From Phycisphaerales bacterium (GTDB lineage Bacteria > Planctomycetota > Phycisphaerae > Phycisphaerales > UBA1924): a stretch of 64,000 nt of DNA. The translations under genes were made by a program, and so were the position numbers. How positions within the stretch are numbered: the first letter of the stretch is position 1; the number at the start of each line of letters is the position of its first letter. The stretch is taken from positions 248,001-312,000 of the forward strand of contig RECY01000026.1 in assembly GCA_007693785.1 (NCBI GenBank), in the 5' to 3' direction. Shown here piece after piece: positions 23,297-37,822 of the stretch. Below the pieces are notes generated by a model. It was given only the letters and a program-made list of their open reading frames with translations. It was not told the DNA's origin and made no database searches.

Positions 23297-24255
23297 CGAA
23301 TTCGGAACCGATATTGTGTGTTGTCAGGGAGTTGCAAGCATCGGGTTTGCGTTCTAGACATCCATCGGAGAGGGGTTTACTGTTGGGCGGATGCCCGACG
23401 CATGTCAGCCGACGCGTTGTGGGAGTCACGCGTGTTCGGCCCGAACGTTCGCCGCGACCATTCGTCGGCGAGCAGACCAGGCGGACCCATGGACCGGACT
23501 TCGCACGAGCCCACGGATCGGCGATTGATGCTGCTGGCGGATCCTTGCTCCCATCCCGACCCCCGCACGCCCGGGCGTGCCGACGAGGGCGGCCTGCGCA
23601 TCATCACGCGCCCCGACGCCCTCGCCCAGCACGCCGCCAAACCAAGACCCGCACCGGTTTTGCAGACCGCGCTCCGATCCGGGAACACCGAGCCACTCGG
23701 GGGTGGTTCGCACACGAGTCGGGCGATCCAAACCGCAACAAGCACCTTCGCGGCGACCCACACCCCTGCCCGAAGCCTCTCGACCAAGGCTCGGCTCAAC
23801 CGGACGCCCGACCACACGTCCAGAGACACGCCGAGCCAGACCCCATTGGTCCGCCTCGGCCCCGGCGGGCTCTACCGGGAAGACTGGCTTCCCGACACGC
23901 TCGAAGATCCAACATCCCCCAGCCCCGCGATCGCAAGCCGCGCTCGCACACCACGATCGAAAGAACCTCACCCATGCGGATCGACGGCGTTCACAAATCA
24001 CCACACCGATCCACCCGCTTCCAACCGCACACGGCCTGAGGCGACGGGTTTCTGCGGGATGGGCGACGTGCCGGGCGCCGGAGGGCGCTGGCGGCGAATT
24101 TGGCAAGGCGTGGTCGGCGGGCTGAGACGCCGACCCGGAGAGATCGAGCCCGAGCCCAATGTGGTGGCCGCGTGGTCGCTGGTGGCCCGGGCCCTCGTCT
24201 CGCAACAACGGGCGATCACACTCGCCCTCGCGTTCGCGGCTCACCGCCCCGACGC
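23297..24255. other. Unassigned 1-kb region between dprA and lexA
   Basis: No recognisable gene. From about 23490 to 24255 one plus-strand frame stays open (MDRTSHEPTDRRLMLLADP at its first ATG) and shows partly G/C-rich third positions, notably at 23540-23640 and 23840-23900 (LGPGGLYREDWLPDTLEDP), but it runs about 200 bases into lexA in another frame, and its residue composition is biased to His, Pro, Arg and Thr. It could be a gene broken by a frameshift, a long untranslated leader, or non-coding DNA. A 10-bp palindrome CGAACGTTCG lies at 23442-23451. Confidence 0.3.
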
Positions 24256-24269
24256 AGAAGGAGCACCCC

Positions 24270-24884
24270 ATGAACCTCACCCCCAAGCAGCTGCGCATCC
24301 TGCAACTGATCCGGGACTGGCGCGTCCGACGTGGCTATTCCCCGACCATGCAGGAACTCGCCGACGAGATCGGCGTCAGCAAGGTCACCGTCTTCGAACA
24401 CGTCGAGGCCCTCATCAAGAAGGGCGCGCTCGTCCGCGAGGCGAACAAGGCTCGCTCTTTATCGATCACTGAGGGCGTCGCCGTCCCCGACGAGTCCCGC
24501 CCCATGCGATTCCCCCTCGTCGGCAAGATCGCCGCCGGCTATCCCATCGAGAAAGTCGAAGACCGCGACGAGATCGACCTCACCGACTTCCTCGCCCCCA
24601 AGCAGGACCGACACGACTCCACCTTCGCCCTCGAAGTCGACGGCGACTCCATGCGCGACGAGGGCATCCTCAACGGCGACTACGTCCTCGTCGAACGCAC
24701 CCAGGTCGCACAGAACGGCGACCGCGTCGTCGCCCTCCTCCCCGACGGCTCCACCACCCTCAAAACCTTCTTCAAAGAAGACGACCACATCCGCCTCCAA
24801 CCCGCCAACCCCGACTTCGAACCCATCCGCGTTAAGTTCTGCCAGATCCAGGGCATCGTCCGCGGCGTCGTCCGGCGCTACTGA
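24270..24884 (+). CDS. lexA: LexA repressor
   Basis: A 204-residue SOS repressor. The N-terminal winged helix (KQLRILQLIRDWRVRRGYSPTMQELADEIGVSKVTVFEHVEAL, residues 6-48) binds DNA. The S24 domain has the Ala-Gly self-cleavage site in KIAAGYPIE (about residue 89), the catalytic serine in GDSMRDEG (about 129) and the lysine in TTLK (about 165). AGAAGGAG ends 6 bases before ATG 24270, one of the clearest ribosome-binding sites in the window. No obvious SOS box is seen just upstream. A strong intrinsic terminator follows at 24980. Confidence 0.95.
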   Translation: MNLTPKQLRILQLIRDWRVRRGYSPTMQELADEIGVSKVTVFEHVEALIKKGALVREANKARSLSITEGVAVPDESRPMRFPLVGKIAAGYPIEKVEDRDEIDLTDFLAPKQDRHDSTFALEVDGDSMRDEGILNGDYVLVERTQVAQNGDRVVALLPDGSTTLKTFFKEDDHIRLQPANPDFEPIRVKFCQIQGIVRGVVRRY

Positions 24885-32646: not shown

Positions 32647-34200
32647 TCACAAGTAGCTCCCCACCCGCGCCGCTTGCGTCTCCGCGTTCTGCACCATGTA
32701 GCGCAGCGCGTCCACCGCGTGGTCGTGCCCGTCCTTTTCCGGCTTCAATTCGTGCGGGCGGTCCGCGGGGTAGTGGTACCGCTCCAGGCACTCGATCAGG
32801 CGCGCGCACCGGCGGTGCACAAACAGGCGCGGCTCGCCCGCCGCCGGCTTCAGACGACCGCGCACGAGCTGGATCCCCTCGTGCAGGCCGATTTTGCGGG
32901 AGCGCACCCGCAGCCCCGCCCGGCTGAGCACCTGCACCGGGCTGAGGCCCGTCTGGTCGTTGCGCTGCCGCCCGGCCGGGTCGACGCCGATCCACGCGAG
33001 CGTCGGCATCCCGCACTCCACGATCGCCGCGACGTGCTCACCGAGCACGACCTCCGTCTCCACGCGCTCGAACGCGACGAAGATCGCCCCGTCCCCCGGG
33101 CGCACGCACGCCCAGAGCACGACCGTCGCCCCGCGGTAGCCGAAGTCCATCCCTCCGATCCACGCCCATTGCTCGCGCCCCGGCGGCAGGCTGTCGATCA
33201 CGTGCACGCGCGGGTCGAACTCCGGCAGCACCGCGTGCGTCCGCGTCGGGCGCAGGCAGAGCATCTCCGCCTCCCACACCGGCAGGCCGACGCGCGCCTT
33301 CATGTCGATCGCGTCGCGCACCGAGACGTGCCCCGCGGGCGCGCCCGCGCCGTCGCGCGCCTTCGCCCGCCCCGCGCACTCGCCGAGGAGCGGGCAGTCG
33401 CCCTGCAGATCCCCGTCGCCCTTGCACGCGCGCACGCGGTCGTCGCACGCGCCGAGCACGTCGACCACGCCCCACTTGAACAGGCGTCGTTGCCCTTCGG
33501 CGCACGTTTTGACCAGGTCGAACATGAGCCCGTGGGGGATGTGCATCGTGCTGAGGCACTCGACGCTGCCGCGGACGCCGAGCGCGTCGGGCGTCGGGAT
33601 CGCGCTCGACCGCGTCACGAGCTGGGCGGCCTCCCACACGAGCGGGTCGAACAGCTCGACCTCGTCGCACCGCAGCTTCTGCACGCGTGTGCCGCGAACG
33701 GACGCTTGGCTCTGCGCCAGGATCTCGGCCCGCCCGCCCGTCGTCAGGCGCACGCGCTTCTCCGTGATCCGCCCGTCCACCAGGGGCGCCAGGTGTTCGC
33801 GCTCGAAGAGCGCCCGCAGGTGCTCGTGCATGCGGCGCGACTGCTCCAGCGAGCCGCCGAGGACGCGAACCTCGATGCCGGGCTTAAAAATCAGATCGAG
33901 CGCCGTCGCGACCGCGCCGAGGAACGTCTTGCCCCCGCCGCGGTTGGCCCAGACGACACAATCGATCGGTCCGTCGTCGCGCTGGTACGCCCCGTCGAAG
34001 CCCGTCGCCGGCTCGAGCTCGGGCGCGAACGAGCCGCGACCTTCGAAGTAGGCGTGCGCGACGTAGTCGAACGGCGCCTGGTGCCCGCCGATGAGCGCTT
34101 CGCGCGCCAGCGTGACGCCGAAGGCGCAGCGCACGAACGCGTGCAGCTCGTCCCGCGTCCGCGGCGGGGCCTTCGGGTCCACCTCGAACGCGGCGCTCAT
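32647..34200 (-). CDS. Phage-type terminase large subunit
   Basis: A 517-residue TerL-like protein. The packaging ATPase motor has Walker A WANRGGGKT (residues 84-92) and a probable Walker B ending in DE (179-180). The RNase-H-like nuclease domain shows acidic residues at MDFGY (D352), GVDPAG (D407) and DHAVDALRY (D493, D497). Between the two domains sits an unusual insertion with four cysteines (C252, C259, C269, C275), suggesting a zinc or Fe-S site. No portal, capsid, protease or tail genes are present. ATG 34200 overlaps the stop of the small ORF upstream as ATGA; the gene is the last of a five-gene run. TerL normally cuts and packages phage DNA; the role here is unknown. Confidence 0.85.
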   Translation of the reverse strand: MSAAFEVDPKAPPRTRDELHAFVRCAFGVTLAREALIGGHQAPFDYVAHAYFEGRGSFAPELEPATGFDGAYQRDDGPIDCVVWANRGGGKTFLGAVATALDLIFKPGIEVRVLGGSLEQSRRMHEHLRALFEREHLAPLVDGRITEKRVRLTTGGRAEILAQSQASVRGTRVQKLRCDEVELFDPLVWEAAQLVTRSSAIPTPDALGVRGSVECLSTMHIPHGLMFDLVKTCAEGQRRLFKWGVVDVLGACDDRVRACKGDGDLQGDCPLLGECAGRAKARDGAGAPAGHVSVRDAIDMKARVGLPVWEAEMLCLRPTRTHAVLPEFDPRVHVIDSLPPGREQWAWIGGMDFGYRGATVVLWACVRPGDGAIFVAFERVETEVVLGEHVAAIVECGMPTLAWIGVDPAGRQRNDQTGLSPVQVLSRAGLRVRSRKIGLHEGIQLVRGRLKPAAGEPRLFVHRRCARLIECLERYHYPADRPHELKPEKDGHDHAVDALRYMVQNAETQAARVGSYL

Positions 34201-34463
34201 GACGCACCGCCTTCCGCGGGCGGCTCGATCCCGAGGGCCTTGAGCAGCGCCGGGGTGCGCAGGCGACCGTGGCGGCGGAGACGCTGGAGGACCGCCGCGC
34301 GTTCGTCCCCGGTGAGGAAGAACGTCAGCGCGTGCGGGAGCTCGCCCGCGGGGCGCGGCTCGGCGGGTTCGGGGATGCGGTCGTGGGCAGCGGCTTCGCG
34401 AGCGAGCTCGCGATCGTGCTTGCGGCCAAAGCGCGGTCCTTCGCGCCGGGTGCGTCCTTGCAT
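34197..34463 (-). CDS. Small protein upstream of terminase
   Basis: An 88-residue protein of unknown function. The start ATG 34463 has AAGGAG 8 bases upstream, a strong ribosome-binding site. The N-terminal half is basic (MQGRTRREGPRFGRKHDRELAREAAAHDR); the C-terminal half (LTFFLTGDERAAVLQRLRRHGRLRTPALLKALGIE) looks like a compact helical unit. Its position directly before terL is where a small terminase subunit often lies, but I see no sequence evidence for TerS. The first 139 bases overlap, out of frame, the 3' end of the GNAT gene. Confidence 0.6.
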   Translation of the reverse strand: MQGRTRREGPRFGRKHDRELAREAAAHDRIPEPAEPRPAGELPHALTFFLTGDERAAVLQRLRRHGRLRTPALLKALGIEPPAEGGAS

Positions 34464-35242
34464 GGGATGGGCTCCTTCACCCTTCCCGGCCCGGGGCACG
34501 CCGTGTGCGCATACGCGACGGGGCGGACGCTGAGGCGTCGCGCCGCCTCGCGCGCCAGCAGCGCGGGGGAGGCTTCGGCGATCGCCCGTGTTGTCGTGCG
34601 CGCACGAGCCCACCGGCGCAGCTCGCGCACGAGCAGCGGATCACCCGCGGCCTTGCGCTGTCGGGCGCGGTCGCCGAGCAGCGCCGCCTCGATCTCGCGG
34701 CTCTCCAGCGCGTCCATCAGCCGCGCATCGCCCTCGTGCACGGGGAGCGCGTAGGGCGTCATCCCGGCGGCGGCGAAGAACCCGCACGCCGAGCCCATCG
34801 CGGCGACCGCCTCGGTCGCGGGCGTGAGCGGCGCGTCGAGATACGCACGGACCAACGCCCGCGCGACGCCGAGCCCGCGGTAGCGTGGATCGACGATCAC
34901 CCGCGCGATGCAGCGGACCTCGCGGTTGAGCCGCGCGGCGCATCGGCGCTTGTCGCCCGACGCGTAACGCCCGGGCCACGCGAGGTTTCGCCACACGCCG
35001 TTGAGCGTCGGCATCGCGAGCACGAGCACGCCGGCGAGCAGGGCGCGGTCCGCATCGATCGCGACGCGGACGCCCGCGGGGACGGCCGGGGCGCCCGCGA
35101 GGTAGTGGAATCGAGAGAGCGTGTCGTACGCCTCGCCCGTGCCCGGCGCGATCGCGAGGCGGACGCCGCCGTCGAGCGCAACGCGCGCGAGCGGGGCGCG
35201 GGCGTTGTCCGATGGCGCGTGTGTTGAGTGGTGTGCGTTCAC
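34325..35242 (-). CDS. GNAT-fold acyltransferase, COG2401-associated type
   Basis: A 305-residue protein. Residues about 38-165 form a GNAT domain: YDTLSRFHYLAG, GVLVLAMPTLNGVWRN, LNREVRCIARVIVDPRYRGLGVARALVR (acetyl-CoA loop RYRGLGVA near 120-127), TEAVAAMG and GFFAAAGM. This is the pattern of the acyltransferase half of COG2401, a family in which an ABC-type ATPase is fused to a predicted acetyltransferase; here the halves are separate adjacent genes. GTG 35242 overlaps the ATPase stop as GTGA. The last 70 residues are low in complexity and overlap the next gene, so the true end may be earlier. Substrate unknown. Confidence 0.7.
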   Translation of the reverse strand: MNAHHSTHAPSDNARAPLARVALDGGVRLAIAPGTGEAYDTLSRFHYLAGAPAVPAGVRVAIDADRALLAGVLVLAMPTLNGVWRNLAWPGRYASGDKRRCAARLNREVRCIARVIVDPRYRGLGVARALVRAYLDAPLTPATEAVAAMGSACGFFAAAGMTPYALPVHEGDARLMDALESREIEAALLGDRARQRKAAGDPLLVRELRRWARARTTTRAIAEASPALLAREAARRLSVRPVAYAHTACPGPGRVKEPIPCKDAPGAKDRALAASTIASSLAKPLPTTASPNPPSRAPRASSRTR

Positions 35243-35958
35243 GCGTCGCGTCCGGGTTGCCGGGTGTCGATGCGCCAGCGCCCGTCGAGCTCCAAGCGGA
35301 CGAGGACGTCGGGGCGCATCGCGCCGGCGAGGGCGTCGCGTCCGGTCGCGACAACGATCGCGGCGTGCGGGAGCGTGCGCACGCGCCGTGCCGCGAGGGC
35401 CGCGACCGTGCGTGCGGTGACCGGGTCGAGCGTCGCGCCGAACTCGTCGGCGAGGAGCAGCACGGGTGTGCGCACGTTTGCGGCGTTGCGCGGTCGTGGG
35501 TCGGGGGCGCGTTCGGCGCGATCGAGGGCGATCGCGAGCGCGAGTCGCCAGCGTTCGCCGTCGCTGAGGGTGCGGGCGGGGCGTGCGAAGGCGGTGGCGT
35601 CGGCGAGGCCCGCGCCGGTGAGGGTTCGGAGGCGTCGGGCGAGGTCGCCGCGGACGGCGTCGATGGGCGCGACGCCGGGGCGCGGGGCTCTGGGCTCGAC
35701 GACGGGGCGTGCGTGGGTGTGGGCGAGTGTGCGGAGGGCGTGGAGGGCGGCGGACTTGCCGCTCCCGCTCGGGCCGACGAGGGCCGCCACCGTGCCGGGG
35801 GCGAGGGTTCGGTGGAGGGCTCGCGCGATCGCTCGCGCCTGGGGGCGCGCGGTGGGAGTGCGTGCCCGTCGGACGCGGAGCTCGACGCCGAACATGGCGG
35901 CGGCGGCGCGGGCCGCCTCGCTGGGCGGGGCGTCGAGGTGGACGGTCCGGCGGCTCAC
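35239..35958 (-). CDS. ABC-type ATPase without membrane partner
   Basis: A 239-residue soluble ABC ATPase. Walker A GPSGSGKS is at residues 62-69, the ABC signature LSDGE at 131-135 and Walker B VLLLADE at 166-172, followed by FGATLDP, the D-loop region. No transporter permease is nearby and there are no membrane segments, so transport is unlikely; the pairing with the GNAT gene points to the COG2401 group of ABC ATPase plus acetyltransferase. GTG 35958 overlaps the stop of the HTH gene as GTGA, and an in-frame extension upstream inside that gene is rejected. It is probably a regulatory or DNA-linked ATPase (inference). Confidence 0.75.
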   Translation of the reverse strand: MSRRTVHLDAPPSEAARAAAAMFGVELRVRRARTPTARPQARAIARALHRTLAPGTVAALVGPSGSGKSAALHALRTLAHTHARPVVEPRAPRPGVAPIDAVRGDLARRLRTLTGAGLADATAFARPARTLSDGERWRLALAIALDRAERAPDPRPRNAANVRTPVLLLADEFGATLDPVTARTVAALAARRVRTLPHAAIVVATGRDALAGAMRPDVLVRLELDGRWRIDTRQPGRDA

Positions 35959-36554
35959 GGGTTGGCCCCGTTGCGAGCCGAGCGGGCGCGGGGGGCTGTG
36001 GTGGGCGGTATAGGCGCGGCGGTGGTGGGCAGAAGGGGTGGCGCCGGCGTGGCGGCGCGGTGCTCGGTGGGGCGTCGCGGGTCGGGGCCCGCGGTGGTCC
36101 TGGGGCGTCCGGTGCGGGCGGCGGCGAGGACGGTCTCGTAGGCCGCCTCGATCGCGTCGGTGTGTCGGCGGACGGTGTGGAGGCTCATCCCGAGCTGCCC
36201 GGCGGCGGCGCGGAGGCTGAGGCCTTCGATGAAGCAGGCGGTCCCCACGCGACGGCGCGAGGCGGTCCAGAGGTCGCGGTGGTGGACGACGAAGAGGAAC
36301 CGCGGGCTGACGAGGCGTGCGGCGAGCTGTCGGACGTGGCGTCGGAGGCTGCGCGGGCTGTCGCCGGTGAGCTTGGCGAGGTCGGTGACGGTTCGCCCGT
36401 GGTGGAAGACGGCTTCGATGAGGGCGCGGTCTCTTGGGGGGAGCCAGACGGCGCGTTCGACGAGGCGGGCGGTGTGATCGCGCCGTCGCCGTCGTCGGAG
36501 ATCGGCCTCGACCCCGGCGTCCAACGCGGCGTGCCGATCGGCGGGTGGGGACAT
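35955..36554 (-). CDS. Two-helix-turn-helix regulator, sigma-like
   Basis: A 199-residue probable DNA-binding protein. Residues about 32-82 (LVERAVWLPPRDRALIEAVFHHGRTVTDLAKLTGDSPRSLRRHVRQLAARL) form one helix-turn-helix, and about 105-140 (FIEGLSLRAAAGQLGMSLHTVRRHTDAIEAAYE) form a second, like sigma-70 region 4 or LuxR-type HTH. The Pro/Ala/Arg-rich tail (150-199) is disordered. ATG 36554 has GGGAGG 8 bases upstream. It is the first gene of the minus-strand run ending in terL and is divergent from the S24-type repressor. Either an activator of the cassette or a recognition subunit is plausible. Confidence 0.65.
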   Translation of the reverse strand: MSPPADRHAALDAGVEADLRRRRRRDHTARLVERAVWLPPRDRALIEAVFHHGRTVTDLAKLTGDSPRSLRRHVRQLAARLVSPRFLFVVHHRDLWTASRRRVGTACFIEGLSLRAAAGQLGMSLHTVRRHTDAIEAAYETVLAAARTGRPRTTAGPDPRRPTEHRAATPAPPLLPTTAAPIPPTTAPRARSARNGANP

Positions 36555-36619
36555 CGCGAACACCTCCCTGCGATCCGAACCCGCCGCGGACGACGAGCCT
36601 CGGATTTGTGGTCAAACGC

Positions 36620-36650
36620 GATCAGAAACACAGACTTGTGTTCACTGATC
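36620..36650. promoter_or_regulatory. Operator candidate 1 (nested palindrome)
   Basis: GATCAG and CTGATC form the outer arms, and AACACA-GACT-TGTGTT a perfect inner palindrome (36627-36642). It lies between the divergent HTH gene and S24-type repressor gene, a natural site for autoregulation. Confidence 0.55.
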
Positions 36651-36652
36651 AG

Positions 36653-36674
36653 AGAACTATGTGTCGATAGTTCT
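36653..36674. promoter_or_regulatory. Operator candidate 2
   Basis: AGAACTAT and ATAGTTCT are perfect 8-bp arms with a 6-base spacer (GTGTCG). The centre is about 43 bases before the repressor ATG. The hexamer ACTTGT recurs at 36634, inverted at 36675, and at 36701, suggesting additional half-sites. Confidence 0.6.
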
Positions 36675-36706
36675 ACAAGTTGGCGCACGAAACGCAAGGG
36701 ACTTGT

Positions 36707-37822
36707 ATGGTAAGACCACAAAGCGGCGCACACTCGCCGTCACTGGCGGAGCAATCGTTGCCGGCACCCGACCCGATCATCCCGTTCGGCACGCTCGTGC
36801 GTGATCGTCGTCGGGCGTTGCGCCTGTCGCTCGCCGCGCTGGGGGCGCGTGTCGGGTGCGCCAAGAGCTATTTATCGGCGATCGAGACCGGGCACAAGCC
36901 CCCGCCACAGGAGGACCTGGTCCGCGGGATCGAGCGGGCGCTGGCGGTGCGGGACGGGCGTCTTCTGGCGGCGGCCCGCGCCGAGCGCACGCCGAGGAGC
37001 GTCCGAGAAGAATTACGTCGTGTTCGATCGATGGTGAACGAGGCGCGTCAGCTCGCGTCGATGATCGCCGAGAGCGGGGTGGACGAGCAGGGGCGTCTGG
37101 AGGGGGCACTCCGGGCGGCTCTGGCGAGCGGGGAGGCGCACCGTCTGGCGGCCCGCCTGGGTGGGGACGCGCTGGGCGCGGGGGGGCGCGGGGATGAGGG
37201 CGCGGGGGTGCGCCGGCTGCCGGTGGAGGTGCCGCTGATCGGAACGGCCCGCGCGGTGGGCGATCGCGAGGGCTCCGGTTCGGACGCGGGCCTGGGCTCG
37301 GGCTCAGGCCCAGGCCCAGGCTCAGGATCGGGCGGCGGGGGCGACTCGGGTGTGGGTTTGTTGCCGCGGTCGCAGGGCTCGGTGCTGGTGACGCCGGGGG
37401 TGACGGATCCGGACGCGTACGCCGTGCGCGTGGTGGGCGAGACGATGTCGCCGGAGCTGCTCGCGGGGGACCTGGTGGTCGCGAGCCCGCTGCTGGGCGT
37501 GGGCGACCGGGTGAGCGATCGGGGCGGCGAAGATGGGGATGCGGATCGTCTCGGGGTTCGGGTGGGGGGCGATGCGGGGTGCGCATCGTGGGCGGACGGC
37601 TCGCTCCGCGTGGTGCGTCTGAGCGGGTCGTCGGGGCTGTGGGTCGCTCGGGTCTACGCGGGGGACGGGGGGCGCGTGCGCCTGCAGCCGAGCGTGAGCT
37701 CGGCGGCGCCGACGATGGTCTCGGCGCGTCGCGTGCGCTCGGCCGACGCGGTGATCGTGGTCGTCCGTCGCCTCCGCGAGGCGGCACGCGAGGGTACGGA
37801 AGAAAGTTCCCGCGCCGGGTAA
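36707..37822 (+). CDS. XRE/S24-type repressor with substituted catalytic residues
   Basis: A 371-residue protein. An XRE helix-turn-helix is at about residues 28-85 (FGTLVRDRRRALRLSLAALG, CAKSYLSAIETG), then a helical segment, a Gly/Ser/Pro repeat linker (190-215) and an S24-like beta domain (about 225-355: DAYAVRVVGETMSPELLAGDLVVASP). In active LexA/CI proteins the serine precedes Met in G-D/E-S-M; here it is Thr (T246). The expected lysine strand reads SLRVVRLSG, and no Ala-Gly cleavage site is seen in the IGTARAVG region. Self-cleavage is therefore unlikely. ATG 36707 follows AAGGGA. It is divergent from the terminase cassette and probably represses it. Confidence 0.75.
   Translation: MVRPQSGAHSPSLAEQSLPAPDPIIPFGTLVRDRRRALRLSLAALGARVGCAKSYLSAIETGHKPPPQEDLVRGIERALAVRDGRLLAAARAERTPRSVREELRRVRSMVNEARQLASMIAESGVDEQGRLEGALRAALASGEAHRLAARLGGDALGAGGRGDEGAGVRRLPVEVPLIGTARAVGDREGSGSDAGLGSGSGPGPGSGSGGGGDSGVGLLPRSQGSVLVTPGVTDPDAYAVRVVGETMSPELLAGDLVVASPLLGVGDRVSDRGGEDGDADRLGVRVGGDAGCASWADGSLRVVRLSGSSGLWVARVYAGDGGRVRLQPSVSSAAPTMVSARRVRSADAVIVVVRRLREAAREGTEESSRAG

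Follow-up and report, generated by a model that had tools for sequence, protein, structure and literature searches.

Five genes on the minus strand and a divergent XRE/S24-type repressor gene form a compact cassette at positions 32647-37822 of the window, the whole 64 kb stretch of DNA analysed here (G000:C13:248001-312000 in the contig numbering used below for the head gene cluster). In order of transcription the run encodes a helix-turn-helix (HTH) protein (35955-36554), an ABC ATPase (35239-35958), a GNAT acyltransferase (34325-35242), a short open reading frame (ORF; 34197-34463, start uncertain) and the large subunit of a terminase (TerL; 32647-34200). The repressor gene lies on the plus strand at 36707-37822, its start also uncertain, as the ORF opens at 36680. 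These positions matched those of an earlier note on this DNA when the ORF list and translations were checked, and the family labels which that note had given to TerL, GNAT, ABC ATPase, HTH protein and repressor were borne out by Pfam and PHROG profile matches. Four-base overlaps, reported there for most junctions, were seen at three of four (HTH/ABC, ABC/GNAT and short ORF/TerL). If 34463 is the start of the short ORF, it shares about 139 bases with the GNAT gene.

The packaging genes and their control

In TerL an ATPase motor and an RNase H-fold nuclease flank four conserved cysteines. The protein matched the PHROG terminase large subunit profile (E 4e-15) and scored 20.1 bits against Pfam Terminase_6C, just below the cut-off of 22.6. 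The Walker, coupling and nuclease residues and the four cysteines are present in the window copy and were kept in 102-111 of 111 cellular TerLs, most of them in at least 108; for motor and nuclease residues the range is 108-111. Ratios of nonsynonymous to synonymous change (dN/dS) were 0.05-0.17 in the closest pairs (12 pairs), which indicates that TerL is under purifying selection. A PDB search with protein P0001 alone returned no match. On viral contigs L144 (4264-4833, 6919-7821) and L151 (7210-7683, 9935-10831) two genes encode the terminase, one for the nuclease and, downstream of it, one for the ATPase, and many of the contigs L143-L191 are similar; judged by this layout, the terminases of these viral contigs are split and permuted.

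The GNAT protein matched Acetyltransf_1 and the ABC ATPase matched ABC_tran, both above the Pfam cut-off, and the Walker A, signature and Walker B motifs of the ATPase are intact. Motifs of both proteins were kept across homologues, though the glycine/alanine positions of GNAT vary somewhat, and dN/dS in closest pairs was 0.07-0.30 for GNAT and 0.10-0.41 for the ATPase (12 pairs each). The pairing with intact motifs is thus present, and at two loci (L036, L037) the two domains are fused. The predicted structure of GNAT has the GNAT fold (pLDDT 84.7); a fold search gave one phage Mom model at rank 6 (E 7e-4), and a Mom-like activity is a possibility. The window GNAT had no direct phage matches. 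No PADLOC model covered TerL or GNAT; 24 models of generic ATPases matched the ABC ATPase (best mad3, E 1e-13), and capH matched the repressor (E 3e-6). A passage in PMC7824862 predicts that a related ABC-GNAT pair acylates a DNA base. Together with the GNAT fold and the weak phage Mom match, this makes it possible that the pair marks DNA for packaging. Pairs of the COG2401 type, for which "MK0520 protein" is a phage annotation, have the same two domains with intact motifs, whereas here the pair is tied to TerL in a cellular operon.

The earlier note's small ORF between GNAT and TerL is present but is not anonymous. It aligns with ParB C-termini, with a ParB profile match at 34209-34421, and is a C-terminal remnant of a ParB-like protein whose full-length relatives carry ParB_N. 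Among the 56 loci that have the repressor in view, 31 carry such a stump, none has full-length ParB and four have a TerS-like gene; in other families the ParB_N protein is complete and a TerS-like gene is retained. TerS is a tentative identity for this small gene, which precedes TerL, and is suggested by that position, by an N-terminus predicted to be HTH-like and by a long helix; the structural model has low confidence (pLDDT 69), and a fold search found nothing at E 0.001 or lower. Most site-recognition parts are missing from the window's family, as expected if packaging became non-specific, and the loss of full-length ParB and of TerS is suggestive of random packaging of host DNA.

The HTH protein, a candidate activator, matched Sigma70_r4_2 above cut-off in two stretches that are sigma-70 region 4-like. 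The palindrome-rich region that the note had described between the divergent genes was resolved into two overlapping inverted repeats, GTTC-N10-GAAC at 36640-36657, a candidate operator, and GAACTAT-N6-ATAGTTC at 36654-36673, read in the sequence. The pattern GTTC-N10-GAAY recurred in 40 of 70 homologous regions against 0.7 expected from mononucleotide shuffles. A TACCATACA motif on the minus strand at 36704-36712 is a candidate second regulatory site, and TACCAWACA recurred in 33 of the 70 repressor-HTH regions (0.5 expected). With at most one mismatch, a stricter palindrome occurred at three places in the whole genome, so control looks local; no wider regulon of the palindrome emerged, and two of the three sites lie, by eye, beside amidohydrolase-like and catalase-like genes. 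A second GTTC-N10-GAAC palindrome is found at 37022-37039, within the repressor gene.

The repressor matched HTH_31 above cut-off and Peptidase_S24 with 19.5 bits, below the cut-off of 23.3. The catalytic serine and lysine and the cleavage-site glycine were each kept in 71 of 72 repressors, the sole exception each time being the window copy, which has threonine, alanine and Ala-Val where the others have serine, lysine and Ala-Gly; because its row in the alignment is divergent, the lysine and glycine columns are less sure than the serine column. The claim that the cassette is switched by the repressor thus fits the class, in which a self-cleaving repressor suggests stress induction in most members, but not this genome's own copy, for which induction must differ or be impaired.

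Distribution of the cassette and a separate head gene cluster

When 84,980 species genomes were searched with the TerL alignment, 375 of 430 candidates proved to be encoding stretches. The best 80 of the 375 were kept, nearly all titled planctomycete and two labelled cyanobacteria; most genomes in this work are metagenome-assembled. Order was counted at 79 of these 80 loci (one duplicate was left out), and in all 56 with the repressor in view the arrangement was repressor/HTH/ABC/GNAT/TerL with the repressor divergent. Other families of the class have the same order. Conservation of gene order, which the earlier note had proposed to check, therefore reaches far past this genome, and its recurrence across these sequences is more than chance. 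Locus L118 (TerL identical to L035), the viral loci and L051 were left out of the TerL-GNAT distance, repressor and motif/order counts.

Among 150 genomes of the class, TerL (at least 300 bits) was found in 83, GNAT (at least 70 bits) in 96 and both in 77, within 6 kb of each other in 59 of the 77. TerL matches below 300 bits (26 of 109 genomes) and GNAT matches below 70 bits (4 of 100 genomes) were dropped from co-occurrence. Both genes are retained about 29-33 kb apart in G157, G209 and G261. In a phylum-wide sample outside the class, TerL matches were weak (at most 79 bits) and mostly covered the nuclease part.

The earlier note had stated that no portal, capsid, tail, integrase or lysis gene is present. 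Profiles for portal, scaffold, capsid and neighbouring genes did find nothing in the 64 kb window, where integrase, tail and lysis genes were not searched beyond those profiles, but portal, scaffold-like and capsid genes lie outside it on the same contig, at G000:C13:5157-8765, about 275 kb from TerL. The portal is of the SPP1_portal family (E 3e-17), the capsid of SU10_MCP (E 8e-90), and the scaffold-like protein matched Phage_scaffold below cut-off (E 1e-4). Common portal and capsid types (PF05065, PF04860, phrog_12) and the tape-measure family PF10145 were not found in this genome; a module lacking a capsid, as these negatives had suggested, was overturned by a search with the phrog_64 portal, which was present in 39 of 45 TerL carriers, at one place in most. 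The 45 genomes used for portal and capsid-type searches were picked for spread from the 83 TerL carriers. PF05065 was found in 42 of the 150 class genomes and 8 of the 45 carriers, PF04860 in 15 of 61 genomes of the order (11 above cut-off), phrog_12 in 5 of the 45 and PF10145 above cut-off in 4 of the 45; a further capsid profile of the common types, run together with the HK97-type portal profile mentioned below, was blunted, as 3 of its 10 rows (L057, L058, L061) were apparently read on the strand opposite to the search match, and it was not relied on.

The head cluster is conserved. In 20 portal loci the portal was present in 20, the scaffold-like gene in 17, the capsid in 19 and the next gene in 18. 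Twenty aligned capsids were 54-68% identical to this genome's, and closest pairs (7 pairs) gave dN/dS of 0.08-0.17. TerL and capsid were 2.5-982 kb apart in 26 same-contig genomes, which are selected cases and not the full list. At one locus (L212 of G300) the two modules nearly adjoin, with TerL and portal about 1.3 kb apart in the same direction.

The SU10_MCP capsid was found in 71 of the 150 class genomes and in none of 14 controls. Both TerL and capsid were present in 69 genomes, TerL only in 14, capsid only in 2 and neither in 65 (odds ratio 160, p 1e-25), and none of the 19 genomes having GNAT without TerL had the capsid. Both genes are usually single-copy in these searches; one genome, G379, has five SU10_MCP places. 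Four same-order genomes, all of family f4 (G251, G374, G397, G409), gave no match for TerL, GNAT or SU10 capsid, and the whole system has apparently been lost there.

These counts bear on the stand-alone nuclease or defence module that the earlier note had entertained. On that account the cassette would be a defence or DNA-modification module with borrowed phage genes, working independently of the head genes, and some observations suit it: fused ABC-GNAT persists without TerL or capsid in some families, the 19 genomes with GNAT and no TerL belong here, acylation of a DNA base is predicted for a related pair in the passage of PMC7824862, and the fold search reached phage Mom. A portal/scaffold/capsid cluster that goes with TerL at the odds ratio given, and co-diversifies with it as described below, speaks against an orphan module, which we consider very improbable. 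At loci L203-L207 (G295, G323, G311, G396, G318) ABC and GNAT share one ORF of about 480-550 codons with TerL not nearby, and these five genomes have neither a 300-bit TerL nor an SU10 capsid.

Descent and viral relatives

In the TerL tree, from which L039 and L217 were left out owing to a split TerL frame, families f1, f2, f3, f6, f98, f101 and f107 each formed a single group, and the order comprising f1, f2, f3 and f93 was recovered at 100/100. Single groups in the capsid tree were f1, f6, f98, f101, f107 and f108, and in the portal tree f1, f2, f3, f98, f101, f107 and f108. Pairwise distances correlated between TerL and capsid (r 0.65), TerL and portal (r 0.77) and capsid and portal (0.71) in 27 genomes, and between TerL and GNAT (r 0.82) and TerL and ABC ATPase (0.63) in 91 loci; no permutation out of 2000 gave a correlation as high. 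When 17 viral TerLs were added, 29 of 30 cellular TerLs formed one clade (support 100/98). These trees and distances suggest that TerL, portal and capsid have been inherited largely vertically, co-diversifying at family level, with exceptions in f7, f97, f2/f3 and f6. The note's description of the system as domesticated agrees with the separate cellular clade, the purifying selection and the co-diversification.

Repeated acquisition of independent prophage remnants is an alternative with which several observations are compatible, since the same module occurs in complete phages, the TerL of f97 groups with a viral one, and some head clusters are broken. Family-level clades, the cellular clade of 29 of 30 TerLs, purifying selection and the usual single copy are difficult to reconcile with it, and we regard independent remnants as extremely improbable. 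A recent prophage was rejected as well. The earlier note had also asked whether homologous loci sit within complete prophages. None was seen in the loci examined, where integrase and replication genes were not searched; the system's portal was in view in 3 of 119 cassette loci (L040, L041, L212), and an HK97-type portal profile matched none of the 119.

In phages nickie (NC_042091) and RHph_Y2_11 (MN988547) the gene for a ParB-like protein is followed by those for ABC and GNAT (labelled an ABC transporter subunit), by one that is DNA-binding or unnamed, and then by TerL, portal and major capsid genes; phage SSU5 (NC_018843) has ParB-ABC-GNAT at the end of its record. Because phages carry this packaging module, they are its likely source in cells. 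As in the cassette, the ParB-like, ABC and GNAT genes of all three form one run. The phage modules, however, sit in phage genomes of 103-117 kb, whereas here a chromosomal operon is found with its head genes elsewhere, and the cellular order HTH-ABC-GNAT-ParB-TerS-TerL is unlike theirs. On viral contig L197 the terminase that comes after ABC-GNAT is of a different type.

Where viral contigs have related capsids (35-43% identity), a TerL of the same family often lies upstream, which points to the ancestral virus lineage. Three further contigs, L281, L282 and L316, have capsids 56-59% identical to this genome's. The whole head cluster is present on L316, possibly a chromosomal copy that was catalogued among viruses; neither L281 nor L282 had a portal profile match.

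Reading as a probable gene transfer agent

We consider it probable that the cassette serves DNA packaging and control in a phage-derived particle system (viriform) of Phycisphaerae-type planctomycetes that is dispersed in the genome and vertically inherited; most likely this system is a gene transfer agent (GTA). A passage of PMC9662315 lists six features of GTAs. Three of these were found in the sequences: particle proteins derived from caudoviricetes (TerL, SPP1_portal, SU10_MCP); full endogenisation, often at several loci, here with the TerL-capsid distances given above; and mostly vertical inheritance, with exceptions in f7, f97, f2/f3 (capsid) and f6 (portal). The other three concern the packaging of mostly random host DNA, on which the losses of full-length ParB and TerS bear; a genome that cannot be packaged whole, to which the 275 kb between the two loci here would be relevant; and delivery of the packaged DNA to other cells. 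We therefore call the system a GTA-like viriform, most likely and not proven to be a GTA. Among the options in the earlier note, a gene-transfer-agent-like fragment is the one we favour, as the separate portal/scaffold/capsid cluster co-occurs and co-diversifies with TerL.

The Rhodobacter capsulatus GTA (RcGTA; Rhodogtaviriformidae) likewise has phage-derived TerL, portal and capsid by vertical descent. It also has an activator, GafA, with a sigma-region-4-like part. In contrast to RcGTA, the system described here has an SU10-type capsid, an SPP1-type portal, an ABC-GNAT(-ParB) packaging module and a LexA/CI-type repressor, its modules are often far apart, and it belongs to another bacterial phylum. 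According to a passage of PMC7947584, the TerS of RcGTA is non-specific and packaging specificity reduced; in a parallel to this, the window's family has lost TerS and the N-terminal domain of ParB. The Brachyspira BhGTA (VSH-1) belongs to another phylum, and the likeness lies in genome layout, its genome being likely dispersed over several loci as stated in PMC9662315, a part of which lists three classified GTA groups. A literature search that mostly did not cover subscription journals and preprints found no title describing a planctomycete GTA.

Several points weigh against this reading. The system is described here from its genes, and particles, packaged DNA and transfer are predicted. To judge by its aligned residues, the window repressor has lost those that catalyse self-cleavage. 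In 38 of 39 genomes the region ahead of the portal gene had neither operator motif, and no clear shared motif was found there, so joint control of the two modules is only inferred. No tree recovered family f7 as a single clade, the capsid tree did not recover f2 and f3, nor the portal tree f6, and the family codes of the genome set stand in for an independent host tree. The f97 TerL (L218) pairs with a viral TerL, and cellular and viral capsids did not form two clean groups (three changes). The phrog_64 portal also matched 2 of the 14 controls, and the PF17236 capsid was undetected in 14 of the 83 TerL carriers. Limited family searches revealed no tail or lysis gene and gave either nothing or weak matches for the genes that follow the capsid gene. 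Head genes are broken in G095 (L261; portal pieces apart), G220 (L280; inverted order) and G294 (L279; capsid gene split), which may reflect decay, rearrangement or assembly error.

The whole anatomy would fit equally well with an inherited virus-like particle that has no part in gene transfer. Examples would be an altruistic or anti-phage device by which phage DNA is packaged or cut, and a capsid put to another use; the limited searches that identified no tail or delivery gene in the window's family and a repressor type suggestive of stress induction are in keeping with it. We consider it unlikely, since motor, nuclease, portal and capsid are retained together, as for DNA packaging, and PADLOC gave no match specific to TerL or GNAT.

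For the GTA reading in its fullest form we see roughly even chances: an unrecognised, independently exapted family with one early origin in the class and inherited since, a self-cleaving stress repressor in most members, an ABC-GNAT pair (originally ParB-assisted) preparing or marking DNA, and modules drifting apart. GTAs of known basis come from few lineages. If the reading is true, an ancient, class-wide system in Phycisphaerae-type planctomycetes would mean a further origin of GTAs, would offer a source of gene exchange in bacteria that are mainly known from metagenomes, and would provide a natural setting for testing the long-unexplained ABC-GNAT pair. It would also illustrate how such systems escape notice, with packaging and head genes far apart, capsid and portal types uncommon, and packaging genes resembling an orphan cassette.

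In the mechanism we propose, DNA damage or stress would cause the LexA/CI-type repressor to cleave itself in most members, the operon would then be expressed, and its HTH protein would activate the head genes. TerL would dock on the portal and fill capsids with host DNA, aided by ABC-GNAT, which might acylate DNA or a packaging protein, and by ParB and the TerS-like protein where these are kept. A LexA-like protein is encoded in the window at 24159-24884 on the plus strand (assigned by eye; repressor profile match at 24273-24875), so an SOS system is probably present in this genome.

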